From positions 5,580,001-5,644,000 of the forward strand of contig NZ_JARUBP010000001.1 of the NCBI RefSeq assembly GCF_029626225.1: a DNA stretch of 64,000 bases. The letters run 5' to 3'. A program made the position numbers and the translations under genes. Every line of letters begins with the position of its first letter. Within the stretch, counting starts at the first letter, position 1. The notes below the pieces were generated by a model. It saw nothing but the letters and a program-made list of their open reading frames with translations. It searched no databases and had not been told where the DNA came from. Source of the DNA: Asanoa sp. WMMD1127 (GTDB taxonomy: Bacteria; Actinomycetota; Actinomycetes; Mycobacteriales; Micromonosporaceae). This document shows, piece after piece, positions 8,813 to 36,057 of the stretch.

Positions 8813-8943
8813 GGTGTGTTAGATCATACCCGCTGTAGCAGATGGGCAGCCACAAGCAGCCGTCCGGTGGCGGCTGGAATATTTAGTGCTACGTTCATGT
8901 CGTACTTAGCGTTCCAGCTTCAACATGTTCTAGGAGATTCGCG

Positions 8944-18860: not shown

Positions 18861-18869
18861 GGAGCAGCC

Positions 18870-19538: not shown

Positions 19539-19595
19539 GTCGGCCGACCGGGGTCGCGGGGGTGTGAGCGTCGTCGCTCCGCCCCCGCGATGGCG

Positions 19596-19622
19596 TTCAC
19601 GGACCGCGACCGGCGCTATACA
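19596..19622 (+). promoter_or_regulatory. Candidate promoter of the STAND gene
   Basis: TTCACG (19596-19601) and TATACA (19617-19622) are separated by 15 bp, a little short. The -10 is the best A/T-rich hexamer nearby. Transcription from it would start near 19630, downstream of the first possible start codon of the long frame, which supports the later GTG at 19690. Confidence 0.4.
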
Positions 19623-19642
19623 TGTCGGTTGGGGGATCCGAC

Positions 19643-19693
19643 ATGCGCACGTACGAGCTCAGCCGGTCCGGGCCGCGGGAAACGGGCCCGTGA
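19643..19693 (+). CDS. Possible 16-residue leader peptide
   Basis: ATG at 19643 follows GGGGGA by about six bases and encodes MRTYELSRSGPRETGP. Its TGA overlaps the GTG of the STAND gene (GTGA at 19690). This is the layout of a translationally coupled leader peptide. The evidence is position only; no function is known. Confidence 0.35.
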   Translation: MRTYELSRSGPRETGP

Positions 19694-22284
19694 CCGCGGT
19701 CACGTCCGATCCGGTCGACGCGGATCGGGTCATCCTGACGCCGGACCAGCGGCTGCGGGTGTTCGTCAGCTCGACGCTCGCCGACCTGACGGCCGAGCGG
19801 CAGGCGGTCCGCGACGCCATCGCCGGCCTGCACCTCGTCCCGGTGATGTTCGAGGCGGGCGCCCGGCCGCACGCGCCCCGCGACGTCTACCGGTCCTACC
19901 TCGAACAGAGCCAGATCTTCGTCGGCGTGTACGGCGAGAGCTACGGCTGGATCGGGCCGGACGCGCCGGTGTCCGGCATCGAGGACGAGTACCGCCTCGC
20001 CGGCGGACTGCCCCGCCTGGTGTACGTCAAGCACCCGGTCGCCGGCCGCGACGCCCGACTGGACGCCCTGCTGGCCGCGATCGCCCGCGACGGCGAGGTG
20101 TCCTACCGCCGGTTCCACAGCGCGGCCGAGCTGCGCCGCCTGGTCGAGCACGACCTGGCCGTGCTGCTCTCGGAGAGCTTCCACCGCCACGGGCCGGCCA
20201 CCGGCGAGGAGGCGGCGCCCGGGCCGATCCCGGTGCCGCGCACCCCGCTGGTCGGCCGCGAGCACGAACTCGATCTGCTGTCGGGCCTGTTGACCGACGC
20301 TCGGGTGCCGTTGCTGACGCTGGCCGGACCGGGTGGCGTCGGCAAGACCCGGTTGGCCGCCGCGCTGGCCGCCCGCGTCGCGTCCCTCTACCGGGACGGC
20401 GTGCGCTACGTCGACCTGTCGACCGTCGCCGGCGTCGAGTCGGTGGGTGAGGCCATCGCGCGGGCGCTGCGCCTGCGCACCTCGGGCGGGGTCCGGTCGT
20501 GCGAGGACCTCGCCATGTTCCTGCGCACCAAGCGCATGCTGCTCGTGGTCGACAACTTCGAGCACGTCGCCGAGGCGGCGCCGGACCTGGCCACGCTGCT
20601 CCGGGCCGCGCCGGGCGTGACGGCCGTGGTGACGAGCCGCATGCCGCTGCGGCTCAACGACGAGCGGGTCTTCCGGGTCCCGCCTCTGCGGGCGCCACAG
20701 GCGAACGGCCGCCTCGATCCGGCCGAGGTGCTCGAGCGCTACAGCGCCGTGCGGTTGTTCGTCGACCGCGCCCGGGCCGGCGACCGGCGGTTCGCGCTGA
20801 CCGCCGACAACCTGGCGCCGGTGCTGGAGATCACCCGCCGGCTCGGCGGTCTGCCGCTGGCCATCGAGCTCGCCGCGGCCCGCGTGCCGCTGCTGTCCCC
20901 GGCCGGGCTTGCTGCCCGGCTCGACGACCAGCTGAGCCTGCTCACCGGCGGCCAGCGCGACCTGCCGCCGCGCCAGCGCACCCTGCGCGACACGCTCGCC
21001 TGGAGCCATCAGCTGCTGCCGCCGGACGCACAGCGGCTGTTCGCCGTGACCGGCGTGTTCGCCGGCGGTTTCGACCTGCCGGCCGTCGAGGCGGTGGCGA
21101 CCTGCCTCGACGAGCCGCTCGACGTGCTCGACGGGCTGGAGTCCCTTGTGGACGCCGCCCTGATCGACCGGGACGGCGACGCCCGCTTCCGGATGGTCGA
21201 CAGCGTGCGGCACTTCGCCCTGGAGCGGCTGGCCGCCACCGCGGGCGAGGGGGCCGCCGTCCGCGAGCGGCACGCCGCGTACTTCCTCGACCTGGCCCTG
21301 CAGGCGGCGCCCCACCTCAACGGCCCGGACTCGCCGGACTGGTTGGCCCGCCTCGACCGCGAGCACGGCAACCTGGACGCGGCGATCAACTGGCTGCTCG
21401 ACCAGGGCCGGCGGGCGGACGCGTTGCGCTTCGGCTGGGCGATCTGGCCGCTGTGGTGGCGCCGGGGCTACCTCGAGGAGGGGCAGCGCTACCTGCGCCG
21501 GACGCTCGACGACCCGCAGCGGTTGTCGCCCCGGTTGCAGGGGCGGGCCCTGGTGGCGGCCGGGGCCATGGCGTTGGTGTCCGGCCAGGACGAGCAGGCC
21601 CGCGCCGACTTCGAGCGGGGCCGTCAGCTCGCGCACGCGACGGGTGACGCCGTCACCGAGGCGCGCGCGCTCGGCCCGCTGGGCTCGTTCGCCGCGCGGG
21701 CCGGCGACCACGAGACGGCCGACCGGCTGCTGCACCAGGCGTACGACCTGGCCGTGCGCACCGACGAACGCTGGCTCGTCAGCCTGTTCCACAGCCGGCT
21801 CGGCATGATCGCCCTGCAGGAGGGCGACCCGGCCGCCGCAGGCGACCACCTCGCCGAGGCGATGCGTGTCTCGGCGGAGGCCGGCGACGAGCTCGGGATG
21901 GTGGTCGCCCGCTACACCTGCGGCGTGGTGCTGGTCGCACGCGGCGAGCTCGCCGGCGCCCAGGACAGCCTGGTGGCCGGCCTGCGCGCGGCGGCGGAGA
22001 GCGGCGACGTCGCCAGCGTCGGCCTGTTCCTGACAGTGCTGGCCGACCTGGCCGGCGCCCAGGACCGGCCGGTGCGGGCGGTGCGGCTGGCCGCGGCCGC
22101 CGGCACCTTCGAGACCCCGTCGAGCCGCCTGTGGATCCAGGCGTACGTGCCGCCGTGGCCGACCCAGGGCGCGGGCCTCGACGAGCTGCGGGAGCGGCTG
22201 GGCCACGAGCGGTTCGAGCGGAGCTGGCGCGAGGGGGAGCGACTGGGCCTGCGCGGCGCGGTGGAGGAGGCGGCTAGGCCGTGA
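19690..22284 (+). CDS. DUF4062-STAND ATPase with TPR-like C-terminus
   Basis: Multidomain switch protein of 864 residues. Residues 18-170 are a DUF4062 domain (RLRVFVSSTLADLTAERQAV; FVGVYGESYGWIG), a fold related to TIR and nucleoside-deoxyribosyltransferase domains. Residues 195-480 are an NB-ARC/AAA-type ATPase with Walker A GPGGVGKTR and Walker B MLLVVDNFEHV. The rest is helical TPR-like repeat. No DNA-binding domain is seen, unlike AfsR-type relatives. Proteins of this plan act as signal-gated switches, and many are in antiviral systems; here it sits inside a polyketide locus, so regulation is an alternative. Earlier in-frame starts lie upstream of the likely promoter. Confidence 0.8.
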   Translation: MTAVTSDPVDADRVILTPDQRLRVFVSSTLADLTAERQAVRDAIAGLHLVPVMFEAGARPHAPRDVYRSYLEQSQIFVGVYGESYGWIGPDAPVSGIEDEYRLAGGLPRLVYVKHPVAGRDARLDALLAAIARDGEVSYRRFHSAAELRRLVEHDLAVLLSESFHRHGPATGEEAAPGPIPVPRTPLVGREHELDLLSGLLTDARVPLLTLAGPGGVGKTRLAAALAARVASLYRDGVRYVDLSTVAGVESVGEAIARALRLRTSGGVRSCEDLAMFLRTKRMLLVVDNFEHVAEAAPDLATLLRAAPGVTAVVTSRMPLRLNDERVFRVPPLRAPQANGRLDPAEVLERYSAVRLFVDRARAGDRRFALTADNLAPVLEITRRLGGLPLAIELAAARVPLLSPAGLAARLDDQLSLLTGGQRDLPPRQRTLRDTLAWSHQLLPPDAQRLFAVTGVFAGGFDLPAVEAVATCLDEPLDVLDGLESLVDAALIDRDGDARFRMVDSVRHFALERLAATAGEGAAVRERHAAYFLDLALQAAPHLNGPDSPDWLARLDREHGNLDAAINWLLDQGRRADALRFGWAIWPLWWRRGYLEEGQRYLRRTLDDPQRLSPRLQGRALVAAGAMALVSGQDEQARADFERGRQLAHATGDAVTEARALGPLGSFAARAGDHETADRLLHQAYDLAVRTDERWLVSLFHSRLGMIALQEGDPAAAGDHLAEAMRVSAEAGDELGMVVARYTCGVVLVARGELAGAQDSLVAGLRAAAESGDVASVGLFLTVLADLAGAQDRPVRAVRLAAAAGTFETPSSRLWIQAYVPPWPTQGAGLDELRERLGHERFERSWREGERLGLRGAVEEAARP

Positions 22285-22942
22285 ACTCCTTCCAGTGCCC
22301 CTCGGAGATGACCTCGACGGCGCCGTCGACGACCTTGATGGCCGTTTCGTCGTCGATCGCGTAGGCCAGGCCACCCAGCTCCGCGGCCCACTTCTCCGCC
22401 GCGGCCATCGTGTTCTCCGGCAGCATCTCGTGGTCGACGTGCGGGAAGATCGAGAAGTCGACGAGACCCAGCGTGGTGTCGTCCCCGGCGGGCGGCCGCC
22501 AGTCCACGAAGTCCTCGCCGATGCGGGGCGTCAGCACCATGCTGCCGGCGCTCAACCCGACCCAGACGGTGTCGCGCAGCGACGGCAGCAGGTCGGCCAG
22601 CCCGGACTCGCGCATCCAGTGGCAGAGGAAGAGCGGGTCGCCGCCGTTGACCAGCAGCACGTCCGCGTCGCGGACCGTGGGGACCCACGTGTCCTCGCCG
22701 ACGCTGGGCAGCGCGGTCAGCTCCAGCACGCCGACGGACTTCCAACCCAGCTCGGTCATCGGGCACTGCGGTTCCTGCCCGCTGATGAACCGCCACGACC
22801 GCACCTCGCCACCGCGCCGGGCGTAGATGGCGGTGGGAATGCACAGCGCGGTCGACTCCGCGATCGGCTTGCCCAGCAGGTCGACCAGCGCGCCGTGGAT
22901 GCTCGGGTTCTTGACGCCTCCGGACGTGAGCAGCAGTTTCAT
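22274..22942 (-). CDS. Peptidase E-like protein (family S51)
   Basis: Cytoplasmic Ser peptidase-fold protein of 222 residues, related to alpha-aspartyl dipeptidase and cyanophycinase. The nucleophile is in WVGLSAGSMVL near residue 130, the substrate-side motif is LLVNGGDPLFLCHWM, and SIFPHVDHE likely carries the His. It overlaps the end of the STAND gene by 11 bp. The stop of the upstream oxidase-like gene overlaps its start by 4 bp, so these two are co-translated. The role in this locus is unclear. Confidence 0.85.
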   Translation of the reverse strand: MKLLLTSGGVKNPSIHGALVDLLGKPIAESTALCIPTAIYARRGGEVRSWRFISGQEPQCPMTELGWKSVGVLELTALPSVGEDTWVPTVRDADVLLVNGGDPLFLCHWMRESGLADLLPSLRDTVWVGLSAGSMVLTPRIGEDFVDWRPPAGDDTTLGLVDFSIFPHVDHEMLPENTMAAAEKWAAELGGLAYAIDDETAIKVVDGAVEVISEGHWKEFTA

Positions 22943-23463
22943 GATGTCCCTTCCTGGCGGTAGGTGGTCTGGCCGAACGGTTCACCCTTGGCATGGGCGT
23001 ACGCCTTGTCGGGCGTCACCTCGAACACGACGAGCCGGGTGTCGGGCGTCAGGGCGGCGACGGCGCCGTCACGGATCTCCAGCTGCCAGCGGCCGTCCCA
23101 GCGGCCGCGGTAGAGCGCGGCGACCCGCCGCAGCTCGGCCTCGTCGGTCACCGGCACGGCGGTCCCCTCGACGGCCACGTCGAGCCCGCCTTCCCAGGCG
23201 GTGTCGCCGGCGAGCACGAGCACGTGCGGGTTCGCCTGGATGTTGGCGTGCTTCACCTCGGTGCTGCCGGTGTGGAACCAGACCCGGCCGGCATCGACGA
23301 CCGGGACCATGGGTGTCGCATGTGGACGGCCGTCGGGCCGCACGGTGACGATCCAGGCGACCTCGGCCGTGGCCAGCCGGGCCTGCGCGTCGGCCCAGGG
23401 CACCGCCTCGGCCCGCTCCTCGCTGTAGCGCCGGTCGATGCGCCCACGCACGATGCCTCCCAA
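22939..23463 (-). CDS. Pyridoxamine 5'-phosphate oxidase-like flavoprotein
   Basis: A 174-residue split-barrel protein of the PNPOx/F420-dependent reductase superfamily. The start of the fold is AWIVTVRPDGRPHATPMVPV, followed by VWFHTGSTEVKHANIQANPH (cofactor phosphate contact region) and the C-terminal TRLVVFEVTPDKAYAHAKG. Such proteins bind FMN or F420 and reduce small molecules, but exact cofactor and substrate cannot be read. It diverges from the HxlR regulator at 23533, which is its likely controller, and overlaps the peptidase gene by 4 bp. Confidence 0.82.
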   Translation of the reverse strand: MGGIVRGRIDRRYSEERAEAVPWADAQARLATAEVAWIVTVRPDGRPHATPMVPVVDAGRVWFHTGSTEVKHANIQANPHVLVLAGDTAWEGGLDVAVEGTAVPVTDEAELRRVAALYRGRWDGRWQLEIRDGAVAALTPDTRLVVFEVTPDKAYAHAKGEPFGQTTYRQEGTS

Positions 23464-23532
23464 ACTGCTTGCAGAATGAAAGTGGTCGCGGTGACGCTAG
23501 CATGACCGGTTGCGAAGTACCATCAGTTCGCG

Positions 23533-24057
23533 ATGACTGACGTAGGAGACCCGCACCGGTCCGGCTGCCCGATCAACCTGGCGGTCGAGGTGCTGGGCGA
23601 CCGGTGGTCGCTGGTCGTGCTGCGCGACGTGATGTTCGGCGACCGGCACTACTTCCGCGAGCTGCTGACCGGGTCGCAGGAGGGGATCGCGTCCAACATC
23701 CTGGCCGACCGGCTGCGGCGGCTGGTCGGGCACGGTCTGCTCTGGCGGTCGGACGACGCGACGCACCGGCAGAAGATCCGCTACAGCCTCACCGAGGCCG
23801 GCGTGCAGCTCGTGCCGGTGATGGCGGCGCTCGGCTCGTGGGGGCGGCGGCACCTGCCCGTCAGCCACGAGCTGTCGGTGCGGGCCGAGCTGCTCGAGCG
23901 GGGTGGGCCGCAGCTGTGGGACCGGTTCATGGCCGAGCTGCGCGAGCAGCATCTCGGCATCCCGCGGCCGCCGGGCACACCGTCGGTCTTCGCCGAGCTG
24001 CAGGCGGCGTACGAGGACGCGGTGAGGGGCGGCCCGCAGGCCGCCCCTCCCAGGTGA
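23533..24057 (+). CDS. HxlR-family winged-helix regulator
   Basis: DNA-binding protein of 174 residues. The HxlR domain spans residues 10-105 (GCPINLAVEVLGDRWSLVVL; GIASNILADRLRRLVGHGLL), with a Cys near the N-terminus that in some relatives senses electrophiles or oxidants. A C-terminal extension of about 60 residues is unlike the basic family. It is divergent from the flavoprotein/peptidase pair, with 69 bp between. It converges on the polyketide operon and ends 1 bp before the cyclase stop, so no room is left for a terminator. Confidence 0.87.
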   Translation: MTDVGDPHRSGCPINLAVEVLGDRWSLVVLRDVMFGDRHYFRELLTGSQEGIASNILADRLRRLVGHGLLWRSDDATHRQKIRYSLTEAGVQLVPVMAALGSWGRRHLPVSHELSVRAELLERGGPQLWDRFMAELREQHLGIPRPPGTPSVFAELQAAYEDAVRGGPQAAPPR

Positions 24058-24058
24058 A

Positions 24059-24379
24059 TCAGCCGCGCCAGTGGTAGAACTCGCGGGCCACCGCGTCCTG
24101 CGGCGACTTCCACGTCGCCGGGTCGTACGGCTTGATGTAGGCCCGCAGGTCGTCGCTGATCTGCTTGAACCCGGCCAGCTGCGGACCCTTGCGCAGCGCC
24201 GCGGCCGGGTCGTCGTCGAACTCGATCACGTGCAGGTAGAGGTCGTTGAGCGAGTAGAGCGAGCGGGCCCGCACCCCCAGGTCGTGGGGGAGCGAGGTGG
24301 CGTCGGACGCCGCGAAGATCTGGGCCACCGACTGCTCGGCGTCCGGTTGGATCTTGGCCACGATCACGGTGCGGTTCAT
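24059..24379 (-). CDS. TcmI-family aromatic polyketide cyclase
   Basis: Single-domain cyclase of 106 residues, last gene of the polyketide operon. MNRTVIVAKIQPDAEQSVAQ, SDATSLPHDLGV and LYLHVIEFDDDP are characteristic of the TcmI/WhiE-VII family, which closes later rings of the polyketide. It overlaps the upstream monooxygenase gene by 4 bp. It resembles both halves of the protein at 18870. Confidence 0.92.
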   Translation of the reverse strand: MNRTVIVAKIQPDAEQSVAQIFAASDATSLPHDLGVRARSLYSLNDLYLHVIEFDDDPAAALRKGPQLAGFKQISDDLRAYIKPYDPATWKSPQDAVAREFYHWRG

Positions 24380-26754
24380 GCGGTGCCTCCAAGCGCGAAG
24401 ATGCCGGCGAGGTGCGCGTCCAGGGCCGCGGCCGAGACCGGCGCGGTGCGGAATCCGACGTGCCCGTCCGGACGGATCAGGTAGGCCCCCGTGCCGCGCA
24501 GGCCGTACGCGGCGCGGAAAGCGCCCGACGGGTCCCGCAGCACCGGCACCTCGAGCCCGGCCGGCGGGCCCGCGTCGTGGCTGGCCACGACGTAGACGTC
24601 GACGAAGCCGCGGACCTTCTCGGCCAGCTTCTCGAAGCCGGCGTACTCCTCGGCCGGCGTGGTCCCGTCGGCATAGGCCAGCAGGGTGTGCCCGGTGCCG
24701 CGGGTCAGCTCGAACAGCCGCACCGCGTGCCCGACGCCGAAGCGGCGCAGGTCCCGCACGTCGGGCGCCCGGTCACCGGGCTGCGGCCCGCCGTCGAAGT
24801 TGTCGCCGTCGGCGCCGACCAGCGGGCTGCCCGCGTAGCTCAGCGTCATCTGCATCTCGAGCAGGAACTGCTCCCGCTCGTCGTCCATGTCCATCTCGTC
24901 GGTGAACGCGATCTTCACCGCGCGGTCGACGATGGCCTTGCCGGCCGGCCGCCGTTCAGCCTCGTAGCTGTCCAGCAGCGCCGGCGCCGCGTCGCCGCGG
25001 ACGGCCAGGGCCAGCTTCCAGCCGAGGTTCCAGGCGTCGTGGATGCCGGTGTTCATGCCCTGGCCGCCGGCCGGCGGGTGCAGGTGCGCGGCGTCGCCGG
25101 CGACGAACACCCGGCCGTCGCGGTAGCGGTCCACGATGCCGTGCTTGATCCGGAAGATCGACGCCCAGCGCAGGTTGCTCGCGGTCGTGCCCTCCGGCGC
25201 CAGTTGGTCCAGCACCGCCTGGATGTCGGGCAGCGACGGCGGGTCGTACTCGGCCGAGAAGCCCGGCGGGATCGCGCCCGAGCCGATCTCGGCCTGCAGC
25301 CGCGGCGGCGCCAGTGTGGCCACCCGGTAACGGTTGCGTCCCTTGAGCGGCACGCAGACCAGCATGCCCTTCATCTCGTCGTCCTCGACCTGGATGAAGC
25401 GCAGCAGGTGGCCCTCCGGCATCGACCAGTCGAGATCGACGTCGCCGAGCATGAACAGCTGCGGGAACATCCCCATGCCGCCCTCGAACGTCAACCCCAG
25501 GGCCTGCCGCACGGTGCTGTGCGCGCCGTCGCAGCCCACCAGATATTGCGTCCGGACGGTCTCCGCCCGGCCGTCCGCGTGCCGCAGCTGGGCCGTCACG
25601 CCGTCGGCGTCCTGGGCGAACGACTCGAGCTCGACACCGCGCTCGACCCGCACGCCGTGCCCGGCCAGGCACTTCGTCAGGATCGCCTCGGTCTCGTACT
25701 GGGGCAGGCCCACGTGGGCGTACGGGAGATCGGGCAGGTCCCAGTCGACCTGGTGGGTCTGGCGGCCGTTGACGAACACGGTCTGGCCGTGCAGCCAGAT
25801 GCCCGCGTCCATCGCCTCCCGGGCGACGCCGATCGTCTCCCAGATCTCCATCGTCCGGCACTGCACGCCGATCGCCTTGTCGGCGGTGCCGGCCGCGTCG
25901 GGCCGCTTCTCGACCAGCCGGCACGACACGCCGCGCCGAGCCAGCTCGATCGCGGCGGTCAGGCCGGCCGGCCCGGCCCCCACCACGAGCACGTCGGTCC
26001 CGTAACTGTCCACAGCAGACCTTTCGACGACTGGGGCGGAATTCGGTCGCGGCCGCTCGGCCGGCTTTGGCTGCGCGGCCGGCTTCGGCGCAACGGCAGG
26101 CTTCGCCGCCGGCGTCACGACCACCCCGGCCGGCTGCGGGCTCTCCTCGGGCCGCGCCACGATGTGGTACGTGGCCCGCTGGAAGTTGTCGCAGATGTAC
26201 TGGATGAGCGGCGCCGTCTGGTCCAGGTGCGCCTGGTCGTCGGTCCAGGCGTTGAACGACGTCTCGTCCAGCCACTCGGCCAGGATGTGATAAGTCCCGG
26301 TGCCGGGCTCCCGCAGCAGCTCCTCGCGGACGTGCCCGGGCGTGCCGCGCATCCGCTCCGCCACCTTGAGATAGGCCCGTTCGTAGGCGGCCTCTTCGCC
26401 CGGCGGCACGGTGACCGTGACCATCACCCGGATCCGCGGGCCCTGGCCGACCACGGTCTGCAGCACCTCGTAGGTATTCTTCTCACCCGACTCGCGCAGG
26501 TCCCGCAGCGCCGCGGTCAGCTGCTCCCGCGCGGCGCTCGGCCCGAACGCGTCGAGCGCCCGCTGGTCCCGCCAGTCGCTGATGATCAGGAAGGTCCGCG
26601 GGTCCTCCGCGTCCCGGATCAGCTCCTGGCGCAGGCTGCCCGGCGTCCGGCTGATCTCGTCGGCGGCGGTCCGCCAGGCCGCCTCGAACGCGTCGGCGCA
26701 GCCCTCCCGGGCGCGCATCCTCAGGATCGTCCGCACTGGACTCTCATCCGGCAT
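24376..26754 (-). CDS. Fusion: two SchA/CurD domains plus FAD aromatic monooxygenase
   Basis: Protein of 792 residues. Residues 6-105 and 108-205 are two ferredoxin-like SchA/CurD (antibiotic-biosynthesis-monooxygenase-type) domains (ISRTPGSLRQELIRDAEDPR; MRGTPGHVREELLREPGTGT). An Ala/Pro/Lys linker follows to about 245. Then comes a PF01494-type FAD monooxygenase: GAGPAGLTAAIELARRG for FAD, YLVGCDGAHSTVRQ, and GRVFVAGDAAHLHPPAGGQG. A thioredoxin-like C-terminal domain ends the chain. In whiE clusters these functions (ORF I and ORF VIII) are separate genes. Expected role: oxygenation of the aromatic polyketide. CLF and this gene overlap by 11 bp. Confidence 0.9.
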   Translation of the reverse strand: MPDESPVRTILRMRAREGCADAFEAAWRTAADEISRTPGSLRQELIRDAEDPRTFLIISDWRDQRALDAFGPSAAREQLTAALRDLRESGEKNTYEVLQTVVGQGPRIRVMVTVTVPPGEEAAYERAYLKVAERMRGTPGHVREELLREPGTGTYHILAEWLDETSFNAWTDDQAHLDQTAPLIQYICDNFQRATYHIVARPEESPQPAGVVVTPAAKPAVAPKPAAQPKPAERPRPNSAPVVERSAVDSYGTDVLVVGAGPAGLTAAIELARRGVSCRLVEKRPDAAGTADKAIGVQCRTMEIWETIGVAREAMDAGIWLHGQTVFVNGRQTHQVDWDLPDLPYAHVGLPQYETEAILTKCLAGHGVRVERGVELESFAQDADGVTAQLRHADGRAETVRTQYLVGCDGAHSTVRQALGLTFEGGMGMFPQLFMLGDVDLDWSMPEGHLLRFIQVEDDEMKGMLVCVPLKGRNRYRVATLAPPRLQAEIGSGAIPPGFSAEYDPPSLPDIQAVLDQLAPEGTTASNLRWASIFRIKHGIVDRYRDGRVFVAGDAAHLHPPAGGQGMNTGIHDAWNLGWKLALAVRGDAAPALLDSYEAERRPAGKAIVDRAVKIAFTDEMDMDDEREQFLLEMQMTLSYAGSPLVGADGDNFDGGPQPGDRAPDVRDLRRFGVGHAVRLFELTRGTGHTLLAYADGTTPAEEYAGFEKLAEKVRGFVDVYVVASHDAGPPAGLEVPVLRDPSGAFRAAYGLRGTGAYLIRPDGHVGFRTAPVSAAALDAHLAGIFALGGTA

Positions 26755-27943
26755 CGCGCAGCCCTTCTTCCCGGTAACGCTTGAGCACGATGGAGCTGTT
26801 GAACCCGCCGAAGCCGCGCGCGTTGACGAGCACCACGTCGGTCCGCAGCGGCCGCGGCTCGCGGACCAGGTCGAGGTCGTGACCGGGCCGCGCCAGGTTG
26901 CCGACCGCCGGCACGACGCCGTCCCGCAGGGCGAGCAGCGCGGTCGCCACGGTCAGCGCCGCACCGCCGGAGCACAGCCGCCCGACGAACCCCTGCGGCG
27001 CGGTCACCGGGACCGGCCGGCCGAAGACGTCGCGGATCGCCCGCGCCTCCAGCGCGTCCAGCGCCGGCGTCGCGGCCCCGTCGGCCACCACGAAACCGAC
27101 CTCGTCGGGCGTGACCGCCGCGTCGGCGAGCGCCTGGCGCATCGCCCGGGCCAGCTGGGCGGAGTCCGGCGCGGGGTCCTGCGGGTGGTGCCCGTCGTGG
27201 GTGGCCGCATAGCCGGCGATCTCGCCGTAGATCTGCTGCGCGCCCCGCTCGGCCGCGGCGGCCGCGTCCTCGACGATCAGCACCGCGCCGCCCTCGCCGG
27301 GCACGAACCCGTCGGCGTCGGCGTCGAACGGCCGGTAGCCGGTGCGGCTCATCCGCCCGCTGGTGCCCTGACACACCAGGGCGTACGGCGACAGCGGCGC
27401 CTCGGTGCCACCGGCGATGACGGCCGGGGTGCCGCGGCGGATGATGCGGCGCGCGGCCCCCAGGCTGTCCAGGCCGCCGGCCCCCTCCGAGACCAGCACG
27501 CTGTTGGGTCCCTTGGTGCCGTGCAGGATCGAGGTCTGACCGACGCTGGCCGCGTAGAACCAGGCGATCGACTGGTACGCGGTGACGGCCCGGCGACCCT
27601 GGCTCCACAGCGCCTGGATCTCCCGCTGGCCGAACTCGTTGCCGCCCGAGCCGCTGGCCAGCACGACCGACGTGGCGTACGGGTCGTACGCCGCCGGGTC
27701 GTACTTCGCGTCCTCGAGCGCCATCTTCGTGGCGGCCAGCGACATCCAGGTCCACCGGTCGGTCTGGATGATCAGGCGCGGGTCCACGTTGTCCTCGGCG
27801 GAGAACCCCGGCACCTGGCCGACGGGCTGGTCGCCCAGCGTGCCCACCCGCACCTCACCGGCCAGTGTGGAGCGCCAGTGCTCCTCGGCGGTCAGCCCGC
27901 TCGGCGCGACGACGCCGAGTCCCGTGACGACGGCCCTGGTCAC
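26744..27943 (-). CDS. Type II PKS chain-length factor (KS-beta)
   Basis: Partner of KS-alpha that sets chain length, 399 residues. Ketosynthase fold with [36 protein letters not shown] and the C-terminal [15 protein letters not shown]. At the position of the KS active-site Cys (Gln in most antibiotic CLFs) it reads VSEGAGGLD, that is Gly. The GTG at 27943 is preferred: its first bases overlap the KS-alpha stop (GTGA) and CTCCGGAGG lies 8 bp upstream. The frame is open to 27952. Confidence 0.93.
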
Positions 27944-29199
27944 GACGACCACCTCCGGAGGACAGCGGCGGACTGGAAGCCACCGAAACCGCTACCGACC
28001 GAGAGCGCGACGTCGATCCGTTGCTCGCGCGCGTTCTTCGGCACGTAGTCGAGGTCACACTCGGGATCCTTGTTCTCCAGGTTCGCGGTCGGCGGGACCA
28101 CGCCGTAGCGGATCGCCAGCACGCAGGCGGCCAGCTCGATCGCGCCGATCGCCCCGAGCGAGTGGCCGACCATCGACTTGATGGAGCTGACCGGCACGTC
28201 GTACGCGTGCTGCCCGAGGCTCCGCTTGAACGCCGCGGTCTCGTGCCGGTCGTTCTGCTTGGTGCCCGAGCCGTGCGCGTTGACGTAGCCGACCGCGGTC
28301 GGGTCCAGTTTGGACTGCCGGAGCGCGTCGGTGATCGCCTCGGCCATCTCCAGCCCGTCCGGCCGCAGCCCGGTCATGTGGAACGCGTTGCTGCGGTTGG
28401 CGAACCCGGCCACCTCACAGAAGATCTCGGCGCCCCGCCGCTTCGCGTGCTCGAGCTCCTCCAGGATCAGCACGGCCGCGCCCTCGCCCATCACGAACCC
28501 GTCCCGGGTAGCGTCGAACGGCCGGGAGGCGTGCTCCGGGTCGTCGTTGCGCGCCGAGGTGGCCCGGATCGCGTCGAAGCAGGCCATCGAGATCGGCGAG
28601 ATCGGCGCGTCGGCGGCGCCGGCGATGACCACGTCGGCGTCGCCGTCCTCGATGAGCTGGTGGCCGTAGCCGATCGCGTCGAGGCCCGAGGTGCAGCCGG
28701 TGGAGATCACCGCGGCCGGGCCGTGGGTCCGGTAGCGGCACGCCACCTCGGTCGCCGCGCTGCTCGGCACCAGCGCCTGGTAGAGGAACCGGCTGCCGTA
28801 GCGCTCGTCGACGTCCCAGAGCCGGCCGTGGTCGCTGACGTTGACGTACTCGTCCTCGAGCCGGGTGGTCGCGCCGACCGCGCTGCCGATGCTCACCGCG
28901 ACCCGGTCGCGGTCCGCGGCCTCGAGGTCCAGGCCGCTCTCGGCCATCGCCTCGTCGGCCGCCACCAGGGTGAACTGGGCGAACCGGTCGCTGCGGTGGA
29001 TCTCCTGCGGGGTCAGCCCGGCCGCCCGCGGGTCGAAGTCGCATTCGGCCGCGATCTGCGAGCGGAAGTCCGCCGGATCGAAGAACGTGATCCGCCGGGT
29101 GGCGGTGCGGCCGGCGGTCAGCATCTCCCAGAACGCGCTCCGGTTGACGCCGCCCGGCGCGACCACACCGACCCCGGTGACCACGGTCCTGCGACTCAT
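27940..29199 (-). CDS. Type II PKS ketosynthase alpha
   Basis: Condensing enzyme of the minimal PKS, 419 residues. The active-site Cys is in [13 protein letters not shown] near residue 170, the first His is in [12 protein letters not shown] and the second in [13 protein letters not shown]. It extends malonyl units on the ACP together with the chain-length factor. The start ATG overlaps the upstream cyclase-cupin stop by 4 bp. Sequence and gene order match spore-pigment-type (whiE) synthases. Upstream extension of the frame is only read-through shadow. Confidence 0.96.
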
Positions 29200-30077
29200 G
29201 GCGTGCTCCCGGGCAGGGCCTCCGTGTCGACGTGGCCCAACTCGGGGCGGGGCGCCAGCGGGCCGAGCGCGAACACCAGGAACGCCGGCGCGGCGCCGTC
29301 GTTCATCAGCCGGTGCTTGACCCCGAGCGGGATGTGCACGCCCTCGTTGGCCTTGAGCGCCAGCTCCCGCCCGTCGAGGCGCACGGTGATCGCGCCCTCG
29401 ACACAGAACAGGAACTCCTCCGAGTACGGGTGCCAGTGCTCGGTGACGACCTCGGCCGGCGCGAGCCGCAGCGTGCCCATGAAGCCCGCCGTCGAGCCGA
29501 CCGTCGCCGGCGACAGGATCGTCCGGATGTCGCCGCCCCGCCGCCTGTTGCTCGGCACGTCCTCGATGGACACCACGCGGATCTCGCGGCGCGGCTGGCT
29601 CGGGCCGCCGATGCCGTGGATCGCCATCCGCTCGACCTTGTCGCGGATGACGTCCATCTGGACGGCCGTGTTGGCGTTGATCCGGTCGGTCATCGCGGCG
29701 GTGTCGATCGGCGCGTCCGGGCGCATGCGGAAGTCCTGGATCCAGCGCATCCGGGTGCCGTTGCCCTCGATCTCGTACGTCCACTCGATGTTCATGAACT
29801 CGAACGGACCCGGCTCGACGCGGCGGGCGACCACCCGGCGGGCGGCCTTGTCCGGTGTGCGCTCGGAGACCCAGCTCCACACCTTGCCGTTCTCGTCGGG
29901 GTGCATGGCCAGGCGGAACCGCACGGTCTCGCCCGACCGCTCGATGATCTCGGCCTGCGCGTACTCGGTGAACAGCTCCGGCCACTTCTCGACGTCGTTG
30001 GTGGCCTCCCACACGACCTCGAACGGCGCGTTGATGAGAATCGAGTTGTCCACGTGACCGATGGTCGGGGCGCTCAT
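29196..30077 (-). CDS. Polyketide cyclase/aromatase-cupin fusion
   Basis: A 293-residue fusion. Residues 5-150 form an SRPBCC (START-like) aromatase/cyclase ([37 protein letters not shown]), like WhiE ORF VI, which closes the first ring. Residues 190-285 form a cupin ([31 protein letters not shown]) with metal-binding His residues, like WhiE ORF II. Its start overlaps nothing upstream except the 4 bp shared with the ACP stop. Fusion would couple first-ring cyclisation to a metal-dependent or scaffolding step. Confidence 0.9.
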
Positions 30078-30325
30078 GCGGCCGGCTCCGAGGTCAGTCG
30101 CTCGTCGATGGCGGTCGACATCTCGCCGACGGTCAGGGCCATCGGGCGGTCGTCGGGCAGCTCGAACCCGTACAACGCCTGCAGTTCGGACTGCAGCTGG
30201 AGGAACGCGAGCGAGTCCAGCCCCAGGTCGCCGAACGTCTTCTGTGGATCGTTCGTGCGCATGTCCGAGGGCAGACCGACCTTGGTGACCAGCAACTGCA
30301 TCAGGTCGTCGATGGTGAACCTCAT
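30074..30325 (-). CDS. Type II PKS acyl carrier protein
   Basis: Carrier of the growing chain, 83 residues. The phosphopantetheine Ser lies in [15 protein letters not shown] near residue 38. GGGAGGAATC before the ATG is a strong ribosome-binding site. It overlaps the biotin carboxylase stop and the cyclase-cupin start by 4 bp each. Too short for easy recognition in the much longer read-through frame around it. Confidence 0.95.
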
Positions 30326-31689
30326 GATTCCTCCCGGTTTTCCGGATCGGTGAGCCGGCCGACGAGCGACGTGTCGTGGGTTCCGGCTACGAATTGCGGG
30401 TGGGCCAGCGCGGTCAGCAGGAAGTCGCGGTTGGTGGAGAGGCCCGGGCCCTCGACGGACAGCTCGGCGAGGGCCCGGCGCATGCGGGCCAGGGCCTGCG
30501 GGCGGTCGGGCGCCCAGACACAGACCTTGGCGAGGAGCGGGTCGTACGCGGCGGAGATCCGGCCACCGGCCTCGGCCGCGGTGTCGACCCGCACGAACGG
30601 GCCGGCCGGCAGGGTCAGCCCGGTCAGCCGGCCCGGGGTCGGCATGAAGTCGCGGGTGGGATCCTCGGCGTTGATCCGGCACTCGATCGCCCAGCCGCGG
30701 GCCTTGAGCTCCTCCTGCGACACGTCGAGCGGCTCGCCGGCCGCGATCCGCAGCTGCTCGCGCACCAGGTCGACGCCGTGGGTCAGCTCCGTCACCGGGT
30801 GTTCGACCTGGATCCGGCAGTTGACCTCCATGAAATAGAACCGGTGCTGGTCGTCGACGAGGAACTCGACCGTGCCGGCCCCGACGTAGCCGGCGGCGAG
30901 CAGGCCGCGCACGGCGGCGTGGCCCATCTGCTCGACGAGACCCCGGGGCAGACCGGGCGCCGGGGCCTCCTCGATGATCTTCTGCCGGCGGCGCTGCACC
31001 GAGCAGTCGCGCTGGCCGAGGTGGATGCCGTTGCCGTGGCTGTCGCAGAGCACCTGCACCTCGATGTGGCGGGCCGCGGGCAGGTAGCGCTCGACGTAGA
31101 CCCGGTCGTCGCCGAACAGCGACTGCGCGGTGCTGCGGATCTCCCGGTACTGCCGGGGCAGGTCGTCGGGTTCGGTGACCACCTGCATGCCCCGGCCGCC
31201 ACCCCCGGCGACCGCCTTGACGATGACCGGGTAGCCGATGTCGGCGGCGACCTTGGCGACCGCCTCCGCGTCGGAGACCGGCTCGATCGTGCCGGGCAGC
31301 AGCGGCAGGCCGGCGTCGGCCATCGCGGCGCGGGCGGTGGACTTGTCGCCGAGCCGGTCGATCACGGCCGGGGGAGGGCCGACGAAGGTCAGGCCCTCGG
31401 CCTCGCACGCCTCGGCGAAGTCCGCCTGCTCCGAGAGGAAGCCGTAGCCGGGGTGGATCGCCTCGGCGCCGGTCTGCCGGGCCGCCTCCATGATCGCCGG
31501 GAGGTAGAGGTAGCTGTGCCGCGCGGGGCCGGGTCCGATGCACACCGCCTGGTCGGCGAAGCGCACCACGGCGCTGTCCCGGTCCTCGGTGGAGTAGACG
31601 ACGGCCACGCGCAGGCCCAGCTCGCGGCAGGTCCGGGCGACCCGCAACGCGATCTCGCCGCGGTTGGCGATGAGCACGGTGCTGAACAC
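30322..31689 (-). CDS. accC: Biotin carboxylase subunit of acetyl-CoA carboxylase
   Basis: ATP-grasp enzyme of 455 residues that carboxylates biotin on the carrier protein. MFSTVLIANRGEIALRVART, the ATP loop VAGGGGRGMQVV, and YFMEVNCRIQVEHPVTE are diagnostic and complete. The ACP gene follows with a 4-bp overlap, and BCCP precedes it by 9 bp. Its place among polyketide genes indicates supply of malonyl-CoA extender. It lacks the fused BCCP seen in primary actinobacterial AccA-type subunits, so it is of the bacterial/plastid separate-subunit type. Confidence 0.94.
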   Translation of the reverse strand: MFSTVLIANRGEIALRVARTCRELGLRVAVVYSTEDRDSAVVRFADQAVCIGPGPARHSYLYLPAIMEAARQTGAEAIHPGYGFLSEQADFAEACEAEGLTFVGPPPAVIDRLGDKSTARAAMADAGLPLLPGTIEPVSDAEAVAKVAADIGYPVIVKAVAGGGGRGMQVVTEPDDLPRQYREIRSTAQSLFGDDRVYVERYLPAARHIEVQVLCDSHGNGIHLGQRDCSVQRRRQKIIEEAPAPGLPRGLVEQMGHAAVRGLLAAGYVGAGTVEFLVDDQHRFYFMEVNCRIQVEHPVTELTHGVDLVREQLRIAAGEPLDVSQEELKARGWAIECRINAEDPTRDFMPTPGRLTGLTLPAGPFVRVDTAAEAGGRISAAYDPLLAKVCVWAPDRPQALARMRRALAELSVEGPGLSTNRDFLLTALAHPQFVAGTHDTSLVGRLTDPENREES

Positions 31690-31698
31690 GACGACCTC

Positions 31699-32220
31699 CT
31701 AGGCTGCCTGGGGATCGATGGTCATGAGCCGTTCGCCGAACTCGACCGGCGCGCCGTCGGCGACGTGCAGCCCGACGACCCGACCCTCGGCCTCGGCCTC
31801 GACGGGGATCATCAGCTTCATCGCCTCGACGATGCCGACCTGCTGGCCGCGCCGGACCTGGTCGCCCTCGGACACGAAGGGCGCGGCGCCGGGCTCCGGC
31901 GAGCGGTAGAACGTGCCGACGATCGGCGCGCAGATGCCGGCGCCGGGCGGGAAAGCGGCCTCCTCGGCCGGAGCGGGGCTGGGCGCCGGAGCCGGCGCCG
32001 GCGCCGGCGCCGGGGCGGCCCCCACGGCGACGGGGACGGGCGCGTGCTGCTGGTCCGTCCACTCCATCTCGACCACGACCTCGCCGGCCCGGATCCGCAG
32101 CGCGCGCGGCCGGTCGGCCAGATCGGCCAGGAGCGACTGGGCGCTGCGGCGCACCTCCTCGAGCGCCTCCGCGAGCGGCGCGGCACCGTCCGTCCGCGCC
32201 GGTTCCATCAAAGACGTCAC
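31699..32220 (-). CDS. accB: Biotin carboxyl carrier protein
   Basis: Carrier of 173 residues. A helical N-terminus is followed by an Ala/Pro-rich flexible hinge ([20 protein letters not shown]) and a biotinyl domain with the biotin Lys in [12 protein letters not shown] near residue 135. The GTG at 32220 is chosen: GGAGGATCCCA precedes it and it overlaps the AccDA stop by 4 bp (GTGA). An ATG at 32208 is possible. Works with the adjacent AccC and AccDA. Confidence 0.92.
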
Positions 32221-33899
32221 TGGGATCCTCCAGGGTGGGTGAGAGCGGCGGCGTTGACGTCGCCGCCGAACCGGCGGAAGCGGGCGCGGCGCTCGGCGAC
32301 CAGGCGCGCGGGGTCCCGCGCCGCGAGGTCGGCGAGCTCGGCCCGGATCGCCTCGCGGACGAGCGTGCCGGCCCGGTTGTTGTCCGACTCGGCGCCGCCG
32401 GGTGGTTCCGGCACGACGCCGTCGACCACGCCGAGCTCCAGCAGCGAGCGGGCGTCGACCCGCAGCGCCCGGGCGGCGGTCGGGGCGGCGGCCGAGTCCT
32501 TCCAGAGGATCGCCGCGCAGCCCTCGGGACTGATCACCGTGTAGATGGCGTTCTCCATGATCAGCACGCGGTCGGCGACGGCGATCGCCAGCGCGCCGCC
32601 GCTGCAGCCCTCGCCGGTGACCACCGTGACCAGCGGGACCGGCAGGGCGCCCATCAGGCGCAACGTCTCCGCGATCACGGTGGCCTGCCCCTGCAGCTCG
32701 GCGTCCACACCGGGGTAGGCCCCGGGCGTGTCGACGAGCGTCACCACCGGCAGCCCCCACTTGGCGGCGAGGCGCATCAGCCGGGCGGCCTTGCGGTAGC
32801 CGGCCGGGTTCGGCATGCCGAAGTTGTGCGCGGCGAGCTCCGCCGGCGTGTGGCCCTTCTGGTGCCCGATCACCACGACCGGCTCGCGCCCCAGCCGGCC
32901 GATGCCGCCGACGATCGCCGGGCAGTCGCCGCCGACCCGGTCGCCGTGCAGCTCCTCGAAGTCGTCGAGGATCATCCGGAAGTACTCGGCGGTGGTCGGC
33001 CGGCCCAGGTGCCGCGCCCGGCGGACCGCCTCCCACGGGTCGAGCTCGGGCACCTGCTCCGGGTCGCGGATCACCACCTGCTCCGCGGGGCACAGGTTGG
33101 CCGCCGTGTCGCGCCGCGCCCCGACCGAGAGCACCCGGCCCAGCCGCTCGCGCAGCTGCGCCCGCGGCGCCACCAGGTCGACGAAGCCGCGCTCCAGCAG
33201 GAACTCGGCGGTCTGGAAGCCGGGCGGGAGCTCCTGCTTGATGGTCTGCGCGATCACCCGGGGGCCGGCGAACCCGAACCGCGCGCCGGGCTCGGCGATC
33301 ACGACGTCACCCAGCATGGCGTACGACGCGGCGACCCCGCCGTAGGTCGGGTCCGTCAGCACGCACGCGGTGACCAGGCCGGCGTCGTCGAGGGCCTGCA
33401 TCGCCTGGGCGGTCTTGGCCATCTGCATCAGCCCGACGACGCCCTCCTGCATGCGCACGCCGCCCGACGCGGTCACGATCACCAGCGGCAGGCGGTCGGC
33501 CAGCGCGGTCTCGGCCGCCCGGGTGACCGTCTCGCCGACCGCGGCGCTCAGGCTGCCGCCCATGAACCGGAAGTCCATCGCGGCGACCACGACCGGCGTG
33601 TCCACGATGGACAGGCGGGCGCAGAGGACGGCCTCGGCCATCCCGGTCGCGTGGCGGGCCTGAGCCAGGCGCTGGGCGTACGGCACGCCGTCGGCGAAGC
33701 CCAACGGGTCGCCGGCGGGCACGTCGAAGTCGAGCGGGCGCAGCGACTCCGGGTCGGCGAGCAGGTCGAGCCACTCCTGGGCGGTCAGCGGGAAACAGCC
33801 GCCGCACTGTGGACAGACGCCGTGGTTGCGGGCGAGCCGCTTGGCGTAGACGACGGCCCGGCAGTGCCGGCACAACGCCCAGTCCGGCCTCGTTGTCAT
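32217..33899 (-). CDS. Fused carboxyltransferase beta-alpha subunits (AccD-AccA)
   Basis: A 560-residue fusion that transfers CO2 from carboxybiotin to acetyl-CoA. Residues 1-270 are AccD-like, beginning with a zinc ribbon (CRHC at about 10, CPQC at about 29) and containing [20 protein letters not shown]. Residues 295-560 are AccA-like ([50 protein letters not shown]). Escherichia coli encodes the two halves separately. The start overlaps the ligase stop by ATGA. With AccC and BCCP it completes an acetyl-CoA carboxylase inside the PKS operon. Confidence 0.93.
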
Positions 33900-35080
33900 G
33901 CCTTCACCCCCGCGTCGACGAGGAACAGGGCGCCGTCGGCGTCGAGGTAGCCGAGGTCGCCGGTGCGCAGCCAGCCGTCCGGGTCGGCCGTCGCCGTGGC
34001 CACCTGCGGGCCGCGTACCCGGACGTGGCCGGGTCGGCCCGGTGGCGCCGGATGCCGCCCGTCGAGGTCGGTCACGCGGCAGTCGGTGCCCGGCACCGGC
34101 CGGCCGACGGAGCCCGCCGTGGGATGGTCGATCCGGTCGCAGTGGGTCAGCGGGCCGCCGGCCGGGCCGTACCACTGCACGAGCGGCGCGCCCACCCGCT
34201 TGGCGAGCCGGCGCGCGGCGGCCGGCGTGATCGTGGCGCCGCCGGAGAGCACGGCCCGCACGGTCAGCGTGCGCGGGTGGGTGTCCCGGGGGTCGGCCGC
34301 GAGCCGGGTCAGCGGCGCCGGCAGGCCGCAGTAGTGGGTGGCGGCCTCGCGACCGGCCAGGGCGACACCGCCGGCCGGGTCGGGGTCGGCGCAGAGCACC
34401 TGGGTCGCGGCCGCGTGGACCGTCGCGTCGAGGTACACCTGTTCGTACGCGGGCAGGTGGTTGACCACCGTCGAGCCCGGCCCGAAACCGTAGGCCCGCG
34501 CCGCCTGGGCGGCGCCGACGGTGAGGTTGCGGTGCGTCAGCGGGAGCACCACCCCACCGGGCCCGAAGCGCAGGCAGGCCACCGCGTCGACGTCCGTGGG
34601 CGGCGGGGCGGGGCGCCGGCGCCGGCCGGCCTCCTCGCGCACCAGCGCGGCCACGGTGCGGGCGCCGCGGTGGCCCGGCTGGTCCAGGTAGGCCACGTCG
34701 AGCTCGTCGCGCTCGACCCGGATGCGGCGTAGCCGGTCGGCCATCCCGGCCATGGCCACGAGCAGGGCGATCCCGGCGCGCTCGATGGCCGCGTCGAGGG
34801 CGTCCTCGGTGAGGTCGGGGTCGAGCACGGCGCAGACGTGGCCGGCCCGGATCGCTCCGAAGTAGGCGATGGGGAAGGCGGGGTGCAGCGCGGCGGTGAC
34901 GCCCACGACCGTGCCGCGCGGCCGGCCGGCGAGCGCGGCGGCGAAGCCGTCCACGGCCGCGTCGAGCTCCCGGTAGGACAGCGCGCGGGCGCCGTAGCGG
35001 ATCGCGGGGCGGTCGGGCGCCTCCGTCGCGGCCCGGCGCAGCAACCCATCCAGCGACTGAGGCGACTCAGTTTCGGACAC
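33896..35080 (-). CDS. Acyl-CoA ligase-like AMP-binding protein lacking C-terminal domain
   Basis: Adenylate-forming enzyme, first gene of the operon, 394 residues. The large N-terminal domain is present: a phosphate-loop-like [26 protein letters not shown], and [20 protein letters not shown]. It then stops at VDAGVKA, exactly before the usual C-terminal domain of about 110 residues that carries the catalytic A10 Lys. The typical SSGTTG phosphate loop is also degenerate. The stop overlaps the next start by 4 bp, so the end is not a random break. It may adenylate only, bind an acyl group, or be vestigial. Confidence 0.85.
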
Positions 35081-35183
35081 GGAGGGCTCCTTCGGGCCGG
35101 CTGTCTAACGGCCTCCCGACCGTCGCAGTTGCCCGCTTGAGCCCGCCTGGAATGTCGGTGGAGGCCCGTGAGCTGCTGTCACA

Positions 35184-35241
35184 ATCGTACGATCCAACCG
35201 AAAAGGTTCCTCATGTCGTTTAAGCCCTTTAAGGTTCTTCA
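35184..35241. promoter_or_regulatory. Divergent PKS/SARP control region with repeats
   Basis: The 185-bp gap between ligase and SARP genes is A/T-richer than its surroundings. It contains the palindrome ATCGTACGAT (35184-35193), a direct repeat AAGGTTCCTCA/AAGGTTCTTCA (35203-35213, 35231-35241) and a doubled TTTAAG (35219-35224, 35228-35233). SARP activators bind short direct repeats near -35 boxes, so these are candidate sites; the 28-bp repeat spacing is not the usual 11 or 22. Confidence 0.4.
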
Positions 35242-35265
35242 CAGCGACGGTCATACGGGGGCGCA

Positions 35266-36057
35266 ATGACCTACTACGTTCTTGGTCCGCTGGCGGTGAG
35301 AGCCACGCCCACCGGCCCGGCGGATCAGCTGACCGCGCCGAAGCCGCGCAAGGTGCTGGCCCTGCTCCTGCTGCACGCGAACCTGGTCGTGCCGGTCGAG
35401 ACGCTGACCGCCGAGCTGTGGGGCTGCGAGCCGCCGGCCAGCGCGCAGACGACGCTGCAGACCTACGTCCTCAAGACCCGCCGCATGCTGACCCACGCGC
35501 TGGGCGTCTGCCCGGCCCGGCTGGCCAACGAGATCCTGGTGACCACGTCCGGTGGCTACCGGCTCAACGTGGGGCCGGGCGAGCTCGACCTCCACGAGTA
35601 CGAGCGCCTCGCCGCCGCCGGCCGGGCCGCGCTGGCCGCCGGCGACGACGTCGAGGCGGCCCGCCTGCTGGGCGAGGCGCTCGGCCTCTGGCAGGGCGGG
35701 GCGCTGGTCGACGTGCGGCACGGCCCGGTGCTGCGGGCCGAGGTGCAGCGGCTCGAGGAGGGCCGGCTGTCACTGTGGCGCCAGCGGATCGAGGCGGAGC
35801 TGCGGCTCGACCGGCACCAGGCGGTGCTCGGCGACCTCGGCTGGCTGGCCGCCCGGCACCCGCTCAACGAGGACCTGCAGGCGCAGTACATGATCGCGCT
35901 CTACCGGGCGGGCCGGCGCACGGACGCGCTGGAGGCGTTCCACCGGCTGCGCGGCACGCTCCAGGACGACCTGGGCCTGGAGCCGTCAGAACGGGTCCAG
36001 CGGCTGCAGCACGCGATCCTGACGGCCGACCCGGCGCTCGACCACGCGTACGCCTAG
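35266..36057 (+). CDS. SARP-family pathway activator
   Basis: Streptomyces antibiotic regulatory protein-type activator of 263 residues: N-terminal OmpR-like winged helix (KPRKVLALLLLHANLVVPVE; LQTYVLKTRRML) followed by a bacterial transcriptional activation domain (LHEYERLAAAGRAALAAGDD; EALGLWQGGALVDV; DALEAFHRLRGTLQDDLGLE). It has no ATPase or TPR extension. It diverges from the ten-gene polyketide operon and is the natural candidate for its activator. Its stop overlaps the convergent gene at 36054 by 4 bp. Confidence 0.92.
   Translation: MTYYVLGPLAVRATPTGPADQLTAPKPRKVLALLLLHANLVVPVETLTAELWGCEPPASAQTTLQTYVLKTRRMLTHALGVCPARLANEILVTTSGGYRLNVGPGELDLHEYERLAAAGRAALAAGDDVEAARLLGEALGLWQGGALVDVRHGPVLRAEVQRLEEGRLSLWRQRIEAELRLDRHQAVLGDLGWLAARHPLNEDLQAQYMIALYRAGRRTDALEAFHRLRGTLQDDLGLEPSERVQRLQHAILTADPALDHAYA

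Follow-up and report, generated by a model that had tools for sequence, protein, structure and literature searches.

A likely spore-pigment/frankiamicin-branch type II polyketide cluster in Asanoa with its own predicted acetyl-CoA carboxylase

Introduction

In whiE clusters, genes for a type II polyketide synthase (PKS) follow the order cupin, ketosynthase (KS), chain length factor (CLF, or KS-beta), acyl carrier protein (ACP), cyclase and TcmI. Frankiamicin is a pentangular compound, and clusters for such compounds are described as having three tetracenomycin-type cyclases, adjacent PdmH/PdmI-like monooxygenases and normally a ketoreductase (C-6); the same paper reports the CLF residues I/V133, A139 and S/T140 for each of its products with 24 or more carbons (PMC4383371). 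Some aromatic polyketide clusters also contain carboxylase genes. In the persiamycin cluster, the PerHIJ proteins are said to form an acetyl-CoA carboxylase complex that provides malonyl-CoA (PMC7296137), the carboxylase of the lanthomicin cluster has likewise been assigned to malonyl-CoA supply, and a table in the lanthomicin paper gives XanB1-B3 as the in-cluster carboxylase of xantholipin (PMC9127795). Here, we analysed a stretch of 64,000 nucleotides from the 8.0-Mb genome of the soil actinomycete Asanoa sp. WMMD1127 (C1:5580001-5644000; hereafter the window), in which ten genes read in one direction on the minus strand, between 24059 and 35080, encode a type II PKS and a complete bacterial-type acetyl-CoA carboxylase. 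We consider it likely that they form a cluster of the spore-pigment/frankiamicin branch with a dedicated carboxylase.

Methods

Genes were called by a codon-based method and families assigned with Pfam and NCBIfam. The surveys covered 354 genomes of the family Micromonosporaceae and 396 genomes of the phylum; G and L numbers denote genomes and loci, and g8 a genus. AccDA alignments and trees were made with the shorter form of the protein (start 33875) and not with the 33899 start.

Results

The operon is transcribed in the order AMP-binding protein, AccDA, biotin carboxyl carrier protein (BCCP), AccC, ACP, cyclase-cupin, KS-alpha, CLF, ABM-ABM-FAD monooxygenase and TcmI cyclase (Table 1). An earlier, sequence-only reading had listed these ten leftward genes, and all were recovered on the minus strand at the same positions and with the predicted families. 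Its description of a self-supplied, whiE-like operon in which a complete carboxylase precedes the ACP also agrees with the motifs and families present. Most junctions had been said to be 4-bp overlaps; we count seven of nine, because in the DNA the AccDA ATG at 33899 overlaps the stop of the ligase-like gene, and the remaining two gene pairs are separated by 7 and 9 bp. Judging from the overlaps, carboxylase and PKS genes would be translated together. Since the operon is conserved in all six Asanoa genomes examined, including that of the window, with mean pairwise dN/dS values of 0.13-0.32 for the ten genes (highest single-pair value 0.53, for TcmI and ACP), it is not a chance arrangement.

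Table 1. Features of the Asanoa cluster, in window coordinates
Feature	Position	Strand	Basis
Cytochrome P450, tailoring oxidase	17628-18860	+	PF00067
Two-domain TcmI-type polyketide cyclase	18870-19538	+	PF04673 twice; SchA_CurD match weak, below cut-off
TcmI-type polyketide cyclase	24059-24379	-	PF04673 2.3e-41
Two ABM domains fused to class A FAD monooxygenase	24376-26736	-	PF03992 in two stretches, PF01494, Rng_hyd_C
CLF (KS-beta)	26744-27943	-	PF00109/PF02801; actinorhodin CLF 1tqy_B 2e-96
KS-alpha	27940-29199	-	PF00109/PF02801; actinorhodin KS 1tqy_A 3.9e-171
TcmN-type aromatase/cyclase fused to cupin cyclase	29196-30077	-	PF03364 and PF07883; PDB 3tvr, 2rer
ACP	30074-30325	-	PF00550 3e-8; DSL motif
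Biotin carboxylase AccC	30322-31689	-	TIGR00514 6.5e-174, below the model's curated cut-off
BCCP (AccB)	31699-32220	-	TIGR00531 above cut-off
Fused carboxyltransferase AccDA, 560 aa	32217-33899	-	accD model in first half, accA model in second half
Degenerate AMP-binding protein ('ligase')	33896-35080	-	PF00501 only
Divergent promoter spacer	35081-35265	.	Inverted repeat, largely conserved in the genus
SARP-type activator	35266-36057	+	BTAD 1.1e-41 and Trans_reg_C

All three carboxylase activities, that is carboxyltransferase, carrier and biotin carboxylase, are encoded with their key motifs. In AccDA, residues 2-251 match the accD model just below its cut-off and residues 276-538 the accA model just above it, the two halves match solved bacterial alpha and beta chains, and the four zinc-ribbon Cys residues are present; on these matches, AccDA is a true fusion. 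BCCP carries the biotin motif EAMKLM at residue 132 and AccC the ATP-grasp motifs. One might argue that such an enzyme feeds fatty acid synthesis or the general malonyl-CoA pool and that its place in the operon only couples supply to growth phase, as malonyl-CoA is diffusible and the operon bears no sign of channelling. We regard this as improbable. The genome also encodes a fused biotin carboxylase-BCCP and, at C1:7619257, a carboxyltransferase with equivalents in four other Asanoa genomes (L089-L092) that stand beside a fatty-acid-type KS, and the other carboxylases of this genome are of other types than the operon set. AccDA, moreover, is tied to KS-alpha loci, and a second type II PKS region is equipped separately, with AccDA, BCCP and AccC all inside about 40 kb. 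Because the genome holds these other biotin enzymes and this second, separately equipped region, the operon carboxylase looks like a dedicated extra copy, and its linkage suggests that it would supply the PKS in the cell. In the second region (L112, C1:535576-555258), the KS lies at 532017 and AccDA at 546576, with BCCP (569282) and AccC (569539) about 21 kb off at C1:569282-570876. G003 also has a second AccDA, adjoining BCCP and AccC (L087).

The link between AccDA and type II PKS genes extends well beyond Asanoa. AccDA matches were found in 206 of the 354 family genomes at E<=1e-60, some to one half only, and in five of the 396 phylum genomes, own included, at the different cut-off of 1e-130. 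A KS-alpha gene lies within 20 kb of 57 of the best 66 matches, which come from 64 family genomes (51 of 60 with Asanoa's six excluded), against about 0.008 expected per gene by chance; of the remaining nine, five are 22-46 kb from such a gene and four are on contigs that have no KS-alpha match. This frequency speaks against the suggestion of the sequence-only reading that the system is under-described. In loci picked by hand, the order AccDA-BCCP-AccC-(ACP)-cyclase-cupin-KS-CLF was seen in 17 of the 18 distinct pigment-type loci with AccDA, the exception being L110. The 17 are the six from Asanoa and 11 from outside the genus (L096, L098, L099, L100, L106, L107, L111, L120, L121, L124 and L004); L001 was dropped as a copy of L115. 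Six further pigment-type loci (L002, L003, L005, L006, L007 and L012) have no carboxylase in the DNA compared. In Trujillonella L004, AccC and ACP share one open frame (6327-8072, 581 aa, PP-binding at 506-557), possibly a fusion and possibly a stop codon lost by sequencing error. The same locus has an Acyl_transf_1 gene between cyclase and cupin (8593-9573), possibly its own malonyl transferase. An ACP domain heads the cyclase open reading frame (ORF) of L106 (10655-11392), a possible ACP-cyclase fusion, and cyclase ORFs of 235-270 aa in L107, L111, L120 and L124 suggest the same.

The catalytic Cys, His and Lys-His motifs of KS-alpha are intact. In a KS-alpha tree of 33 rows, Asanoa falls into a group of 25 rows that is separated from the other eight with support of 100/99 and also holds Streptomyces loci of whiE layout, Pseudofrankia, Trujillonella and Micromonospora-type loci; the inner relations of this group are not settled and no named whiE reference sequence is among the rows. 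This agrees with the earlier view that the minimal PKS content matches that of spore-pigment clusters. The KS protein of the Asanoa ishikariensis locus L001 is identical to that of G004. In the CLF, the active-site Gln of actinorhodin is replaced by Gly; Gln is missing in 23 of 24 pigment-type rows versus three of eight others. The window CLF has I133, A139 and S140, as well as N at position 109, and the set I/V133-A139-S/T140 occurs in 23 of 24 pigment-type rows (L096 has C140) versus one of eight others. Neither the Gln nor the residue-set counts are independent, since the rows share ancestry and the L001/L115 copy is among them.

The operon has a WhiE VI-like aromatase, a WhiE II-like cupin and a WhiE VII-like cyclase, and thereby the three tetracenomycin-type cyclases. 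The nearest PDB relatives of the aromatase domain are TcmN-type polyketide cyclases; 3tvr, 3tl1 and 2kf2 carry the label 'polyketide cyclase', and we take them to include WhiE. Fusion of cyclase and cupin is found in all six Asanoa genomes. It is not confined to the genus, as it is uninterrupted in three others of the 354 family genomes (G032, G033 and G043), while the match in G332 contains one stop; in G043, no carboxylase gene was found within the 20 kb compared. The two ABM domains are present, but fused to the FAD monooxygenase, a protein with a mean dN/dS of 0.26 whose best PDB relative is a rifampin monooxygenase, followed among others by GrhO5 and RubL. Near end-to-end relatives of the whole fusion occur in G142, G340 and G081, the last reading through one stop codon, and L004 has one of 829 aa. 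ABM proteins have been proposed to act as monooxygenases or to help hold the PKS to its proper course, and ABM-cyclase fusions have been noted.

From these families, the product is likely an aromatic polyketide of about 24 carbons shaped by TcmN/TcmJ/TcmI-type cyclases and related to spore pigments and frankiamicin. Our best guess is a pigment of about 24 carbons that resembles tetracenomycin or pentangular compounds, and we do not claim 'pentangular' itself; a role as pigment is probable. The same machinery could also make a secreted tetracenomycin- or pentangular-type antibiotic, to which we assign a serious, if lesser, chance. GrhO5 and RubL come from rubromycin-type pathways, adjacent PdmH/PdmI-like monooxygenases mark pentangular clusters (PMC4383371), and persiamycin combines WhiE-like genes with a carboxylase, too. 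On the other side, KS-alpha belongs to the pigment/frankiamicin group and not to the eight-row group (yet frankiamicin is itself pentangular), the cluster is present in all six Asanoa genomes, and no transporter, glycosylation or resistance family is found among the genes that these six have in common.

A pigment-branch cluster with a dedicated carboxylase remains the reading we prefer, and the following points weigh against it. Against the NCBIfam models, AccC and the AccD half fall short of the accC and accD cut-offs, and the ACP scores far below the one for housekeeping ACP. Among the predicted genes at 17628-36057, no ketoreductase (no SDR family) was found. Ancestry alone may explain the KS-beta residue rule, and the tree groups compared below were named only after the trees had been inspected.

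The leading gene had been called a ligase. Its AMP-binding family (PF00501) stands; ligase activity is probably wrong, given that the catalytic motifs are missing. In all six Asanoa species, the protein (379-409 aa) has no C-terminal domain, and a different stretch, shorter by three to six residues, stands in place of the TSGTTGxPK P-loop of full-length relatives. G001, the deepest Asanoa branch in the KS and AccDA trees, retains the A5 Glu (YGxxE), which the window and four other species lack. The mean omega of the gene, 0.32, is the highest of the ten and well under 1. An AlphaFold model (7 sequences) had a mean pLDDT of 41.6, too poor for use. We conclude that the protein is probably non-catalytic yet under purifying selection, and more likely binds, scaffolds or regulates than makes acyl-adenylates. 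Could it still be an active starter-unit ligase, so that an unusual acyl group would prime the PKS? In clusters of genus g8, ACP and AccDA are preceded by relatives of 563-641 aa whose motifs are intact, and both the selection on the Asanoa ORF and the A5 Glu of G001 would fit such a role. With the P-loop and C-terminal domain gone in every species and the Glu in five of six, and with no such gene between SARP and AccDA in the nearest four clusters (L096, L098, L099 and L100), we judge it very unlikely. In the g8 cluster L093, a full-length AMP-ligase carries a fused C-terminal ABM domain (4712-6637).

The AccDA tree (36 rows) groups Asanoa with its four nearest clusters and with four g8 clusters in a 15-row clade with support of 100/100, whereas the g8 KS-alpha falls into the eight-row group. 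An AccDA tree constrained to unite the KS-pigment rows (17 rows versus 8; L110 and L004 left out) was rejected with p-AU 9e-6, and so was a KS tree constrained to unite the AccDA clade, with p-AU 2e-10; both values are descriptive because of the late naming of the groups. Because the KS-alpha and AccDA trees conflict, carboxylase cassettes, with SARP and ligase, have probably been exchanged between clusters; loss and hidden paralogy are possible alternatives.

The SARP gene adjoins the operon in all six Asanoa genomes. A scan for sigma-70 promoters and terminators gave no signal above chance. The spacer between SARP and the operon is spanned by a 12-nt inverted repeat (35118-35129/35241-35252), largely kept in the six species and a possible operator. 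The P450 had been named as an added gene; it is part of the cluster, though it lies outside the span of 24059-35080 given for it. The P450 and the two-domain TcmI gene are near the operon in all six genomes, 61 bp from its TcmI gene in G001, and the Trujillonella endophytica operon (L004) holds both, co-directionally (60% and 62% identity, respectively). On this evidence, the pair belongs to the cluster, though detached. The HxlR, PNPOx and peptidase S51 genes (22274-24057) and an SDR gene (13727-14434) gave no 50%-identity match in the stretches compared from the other five Asanoa genomes and are therefore probably outside it. A STAND-like NTPase gene (DUF4062-AAA/NB-ARC-TPR; 19690-22284, plus strand), for which PADLOC gave no match, stands between the pair and the operon in five of six genomes, in two copies in G002 and G004; it is absent from that spot in G001, where the pair abuts the operon. 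Further off lie an IS481-type transposase gene, identified by Pfam (11994-13034, plus strand), and a 131-aa ORF with an aldehyde dehydrogenase family match (9777-10172, plus strand), directly after an SDR gene.

Discussion

We propose that the SARP switches on the divergent operon. AccC would then carboxylate biotin on BCCP, and AccDA would pass the carboxyl group to acetyl-CoA to give malonyl-CoA. From this, ACP, KS-alpha and CLF would assemble a chain of about 24 carbons, in which the TcmN-type domain could close the first rings and the fused cupin and TcmI-type proteins later rings. Oxidation of the product would fall to the P450 and the ABM-ABM-FAD monooxygenase.

More tentatively, and as an idea to which we give a little less than an even chance, AccDA cassettes may be exchangeable supply modules for type II PKSs in the Micromonosporaceae, swapped between pigment-type and other clusters. 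In more than one pigment lineage, they would have settled immediately before the ACP-cyclase-KS block, up to an AccC-ACP fusion in Trujillonella. The Asanoa cassette would have arrived with a starter ligase, and this ligase would since have lost catalysis but been conserved for a new role in binding, scaffolding or regulation. More generally, the results suggest that, across much of a large actinobacterial family, the genes for aromatic polyketides and those for precursor supply belong to one genetic unit. Such operons are ready-made carboxylase-PKS sets for heterologous production, and the present one points to a decayed ligase retained under selection.

Micromonospora strains have been reported to contain whiE-type genes in all cases tested but one, with black pigments as a possible link. 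Among the literature matches listed, none is a paper on this Asanoa operon, with subscription papers mostly outside reach, and those for kinamycin, lysolipin, pradimicin and jadomycin with carboxylase contained no carboxylase term; presumably, several clusters of these types do carry carboxylase genes.

Compared with the whiE-layout Streptomyces loci (L005, L006, L007 and L012), the Asanoa cluster shares KS, CLF, ACP, TcmN-type cyclase, cupin, TcmI-type cyclase and FAD monooxygenase. These loci differ in that they have no carboxylase in the DNA compared, an ACP downstream of the CLF and separate cyclase and cupin genes, whereas in Asanoa the ACP lies upstream of cyclase, cupin and KS. The sequence-only reading was right that the whiE order is not kept; the exact combination of fusions was also not seen in the characterised clusters as far as described, but each of the two fusions occurs in other genomes too. 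The fkm cluster of Frankia shares the three tetracenomycin-type cyclases and N at CLF position 109, and has its paired PdmH/PdmI-like monooxygenases as separate genes where Asanoa has two fused ABM domains; it differs by a ketoreductase and by having no carboxylase among the genes described (PMC4383371).

The persiamycin cluster of Streptomonospora sp. PA3 shares WhiE-like KS, CLF and ACP, WhiE II cupin, WhiE VI aromatase and WhiE VII cyclase, the interleaved PerH/I/J carboxylase and an AfsR/SARP-family regulator; it differs in gene order, separate cyclase and cupin, a 3-oxoacyl-ACP reductase, sugar genes and a known product (PMC7296137). In the lanthomicin cluster ltm, LtmH1 (571 aa), LtmH2 and LtmH3 are carboxyltransferase, BCCP and biotin carboxylase, in Asanoa's order and co-directional with the PKS; a SARP is present and the small paired monooxygenases LtmG1/G2 adjoin the carboxylase genes, but the carboxylase is downstream of the PKS, there are ketoreductases and methyltransferases, and the KS-beta falls into a 26-carbon subclade (PMC9127795). 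Persiamycin, lanthomicin and xantholipin clusters carry in-cluster carboxylases (PerH/I/J, LtmH1-H3 and XanB1-B3, respectively), which again tells against an under-described system; together with the AccDA matches beside type II PKS genes, they go most of the way towards what the sequence-only reading had itself named as a refutation, many characterised clusters of the same order and fusions. Also close are the ten uncharacterised Micromonosporaceae clusters listed above and Trujillonella L004, which share AccDA-BCCP-AccC directly upstream of ACP-cyclase-cupin-KS-CLF in one direction. They differ from Asanoa in their separate cyclase and cupin and in having no leading ligase remnant; the L106 group has TcmI before AccDA, with ACP fused to the cyclase in L106 itself, and L004 has the ACP in the AccC frame and an acyltransferase gene before the cupin. 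On this comparison, the pairing of carboxylase and PKS is already known and common in the family, and the Asanoa operon is not a new kind of system; new are its details, namely a decayed ligase kept under selection, the cyclase-cupin and ABM-ABM-FAD fusions, and the conflict between the KS-alpha and AccDA trees.

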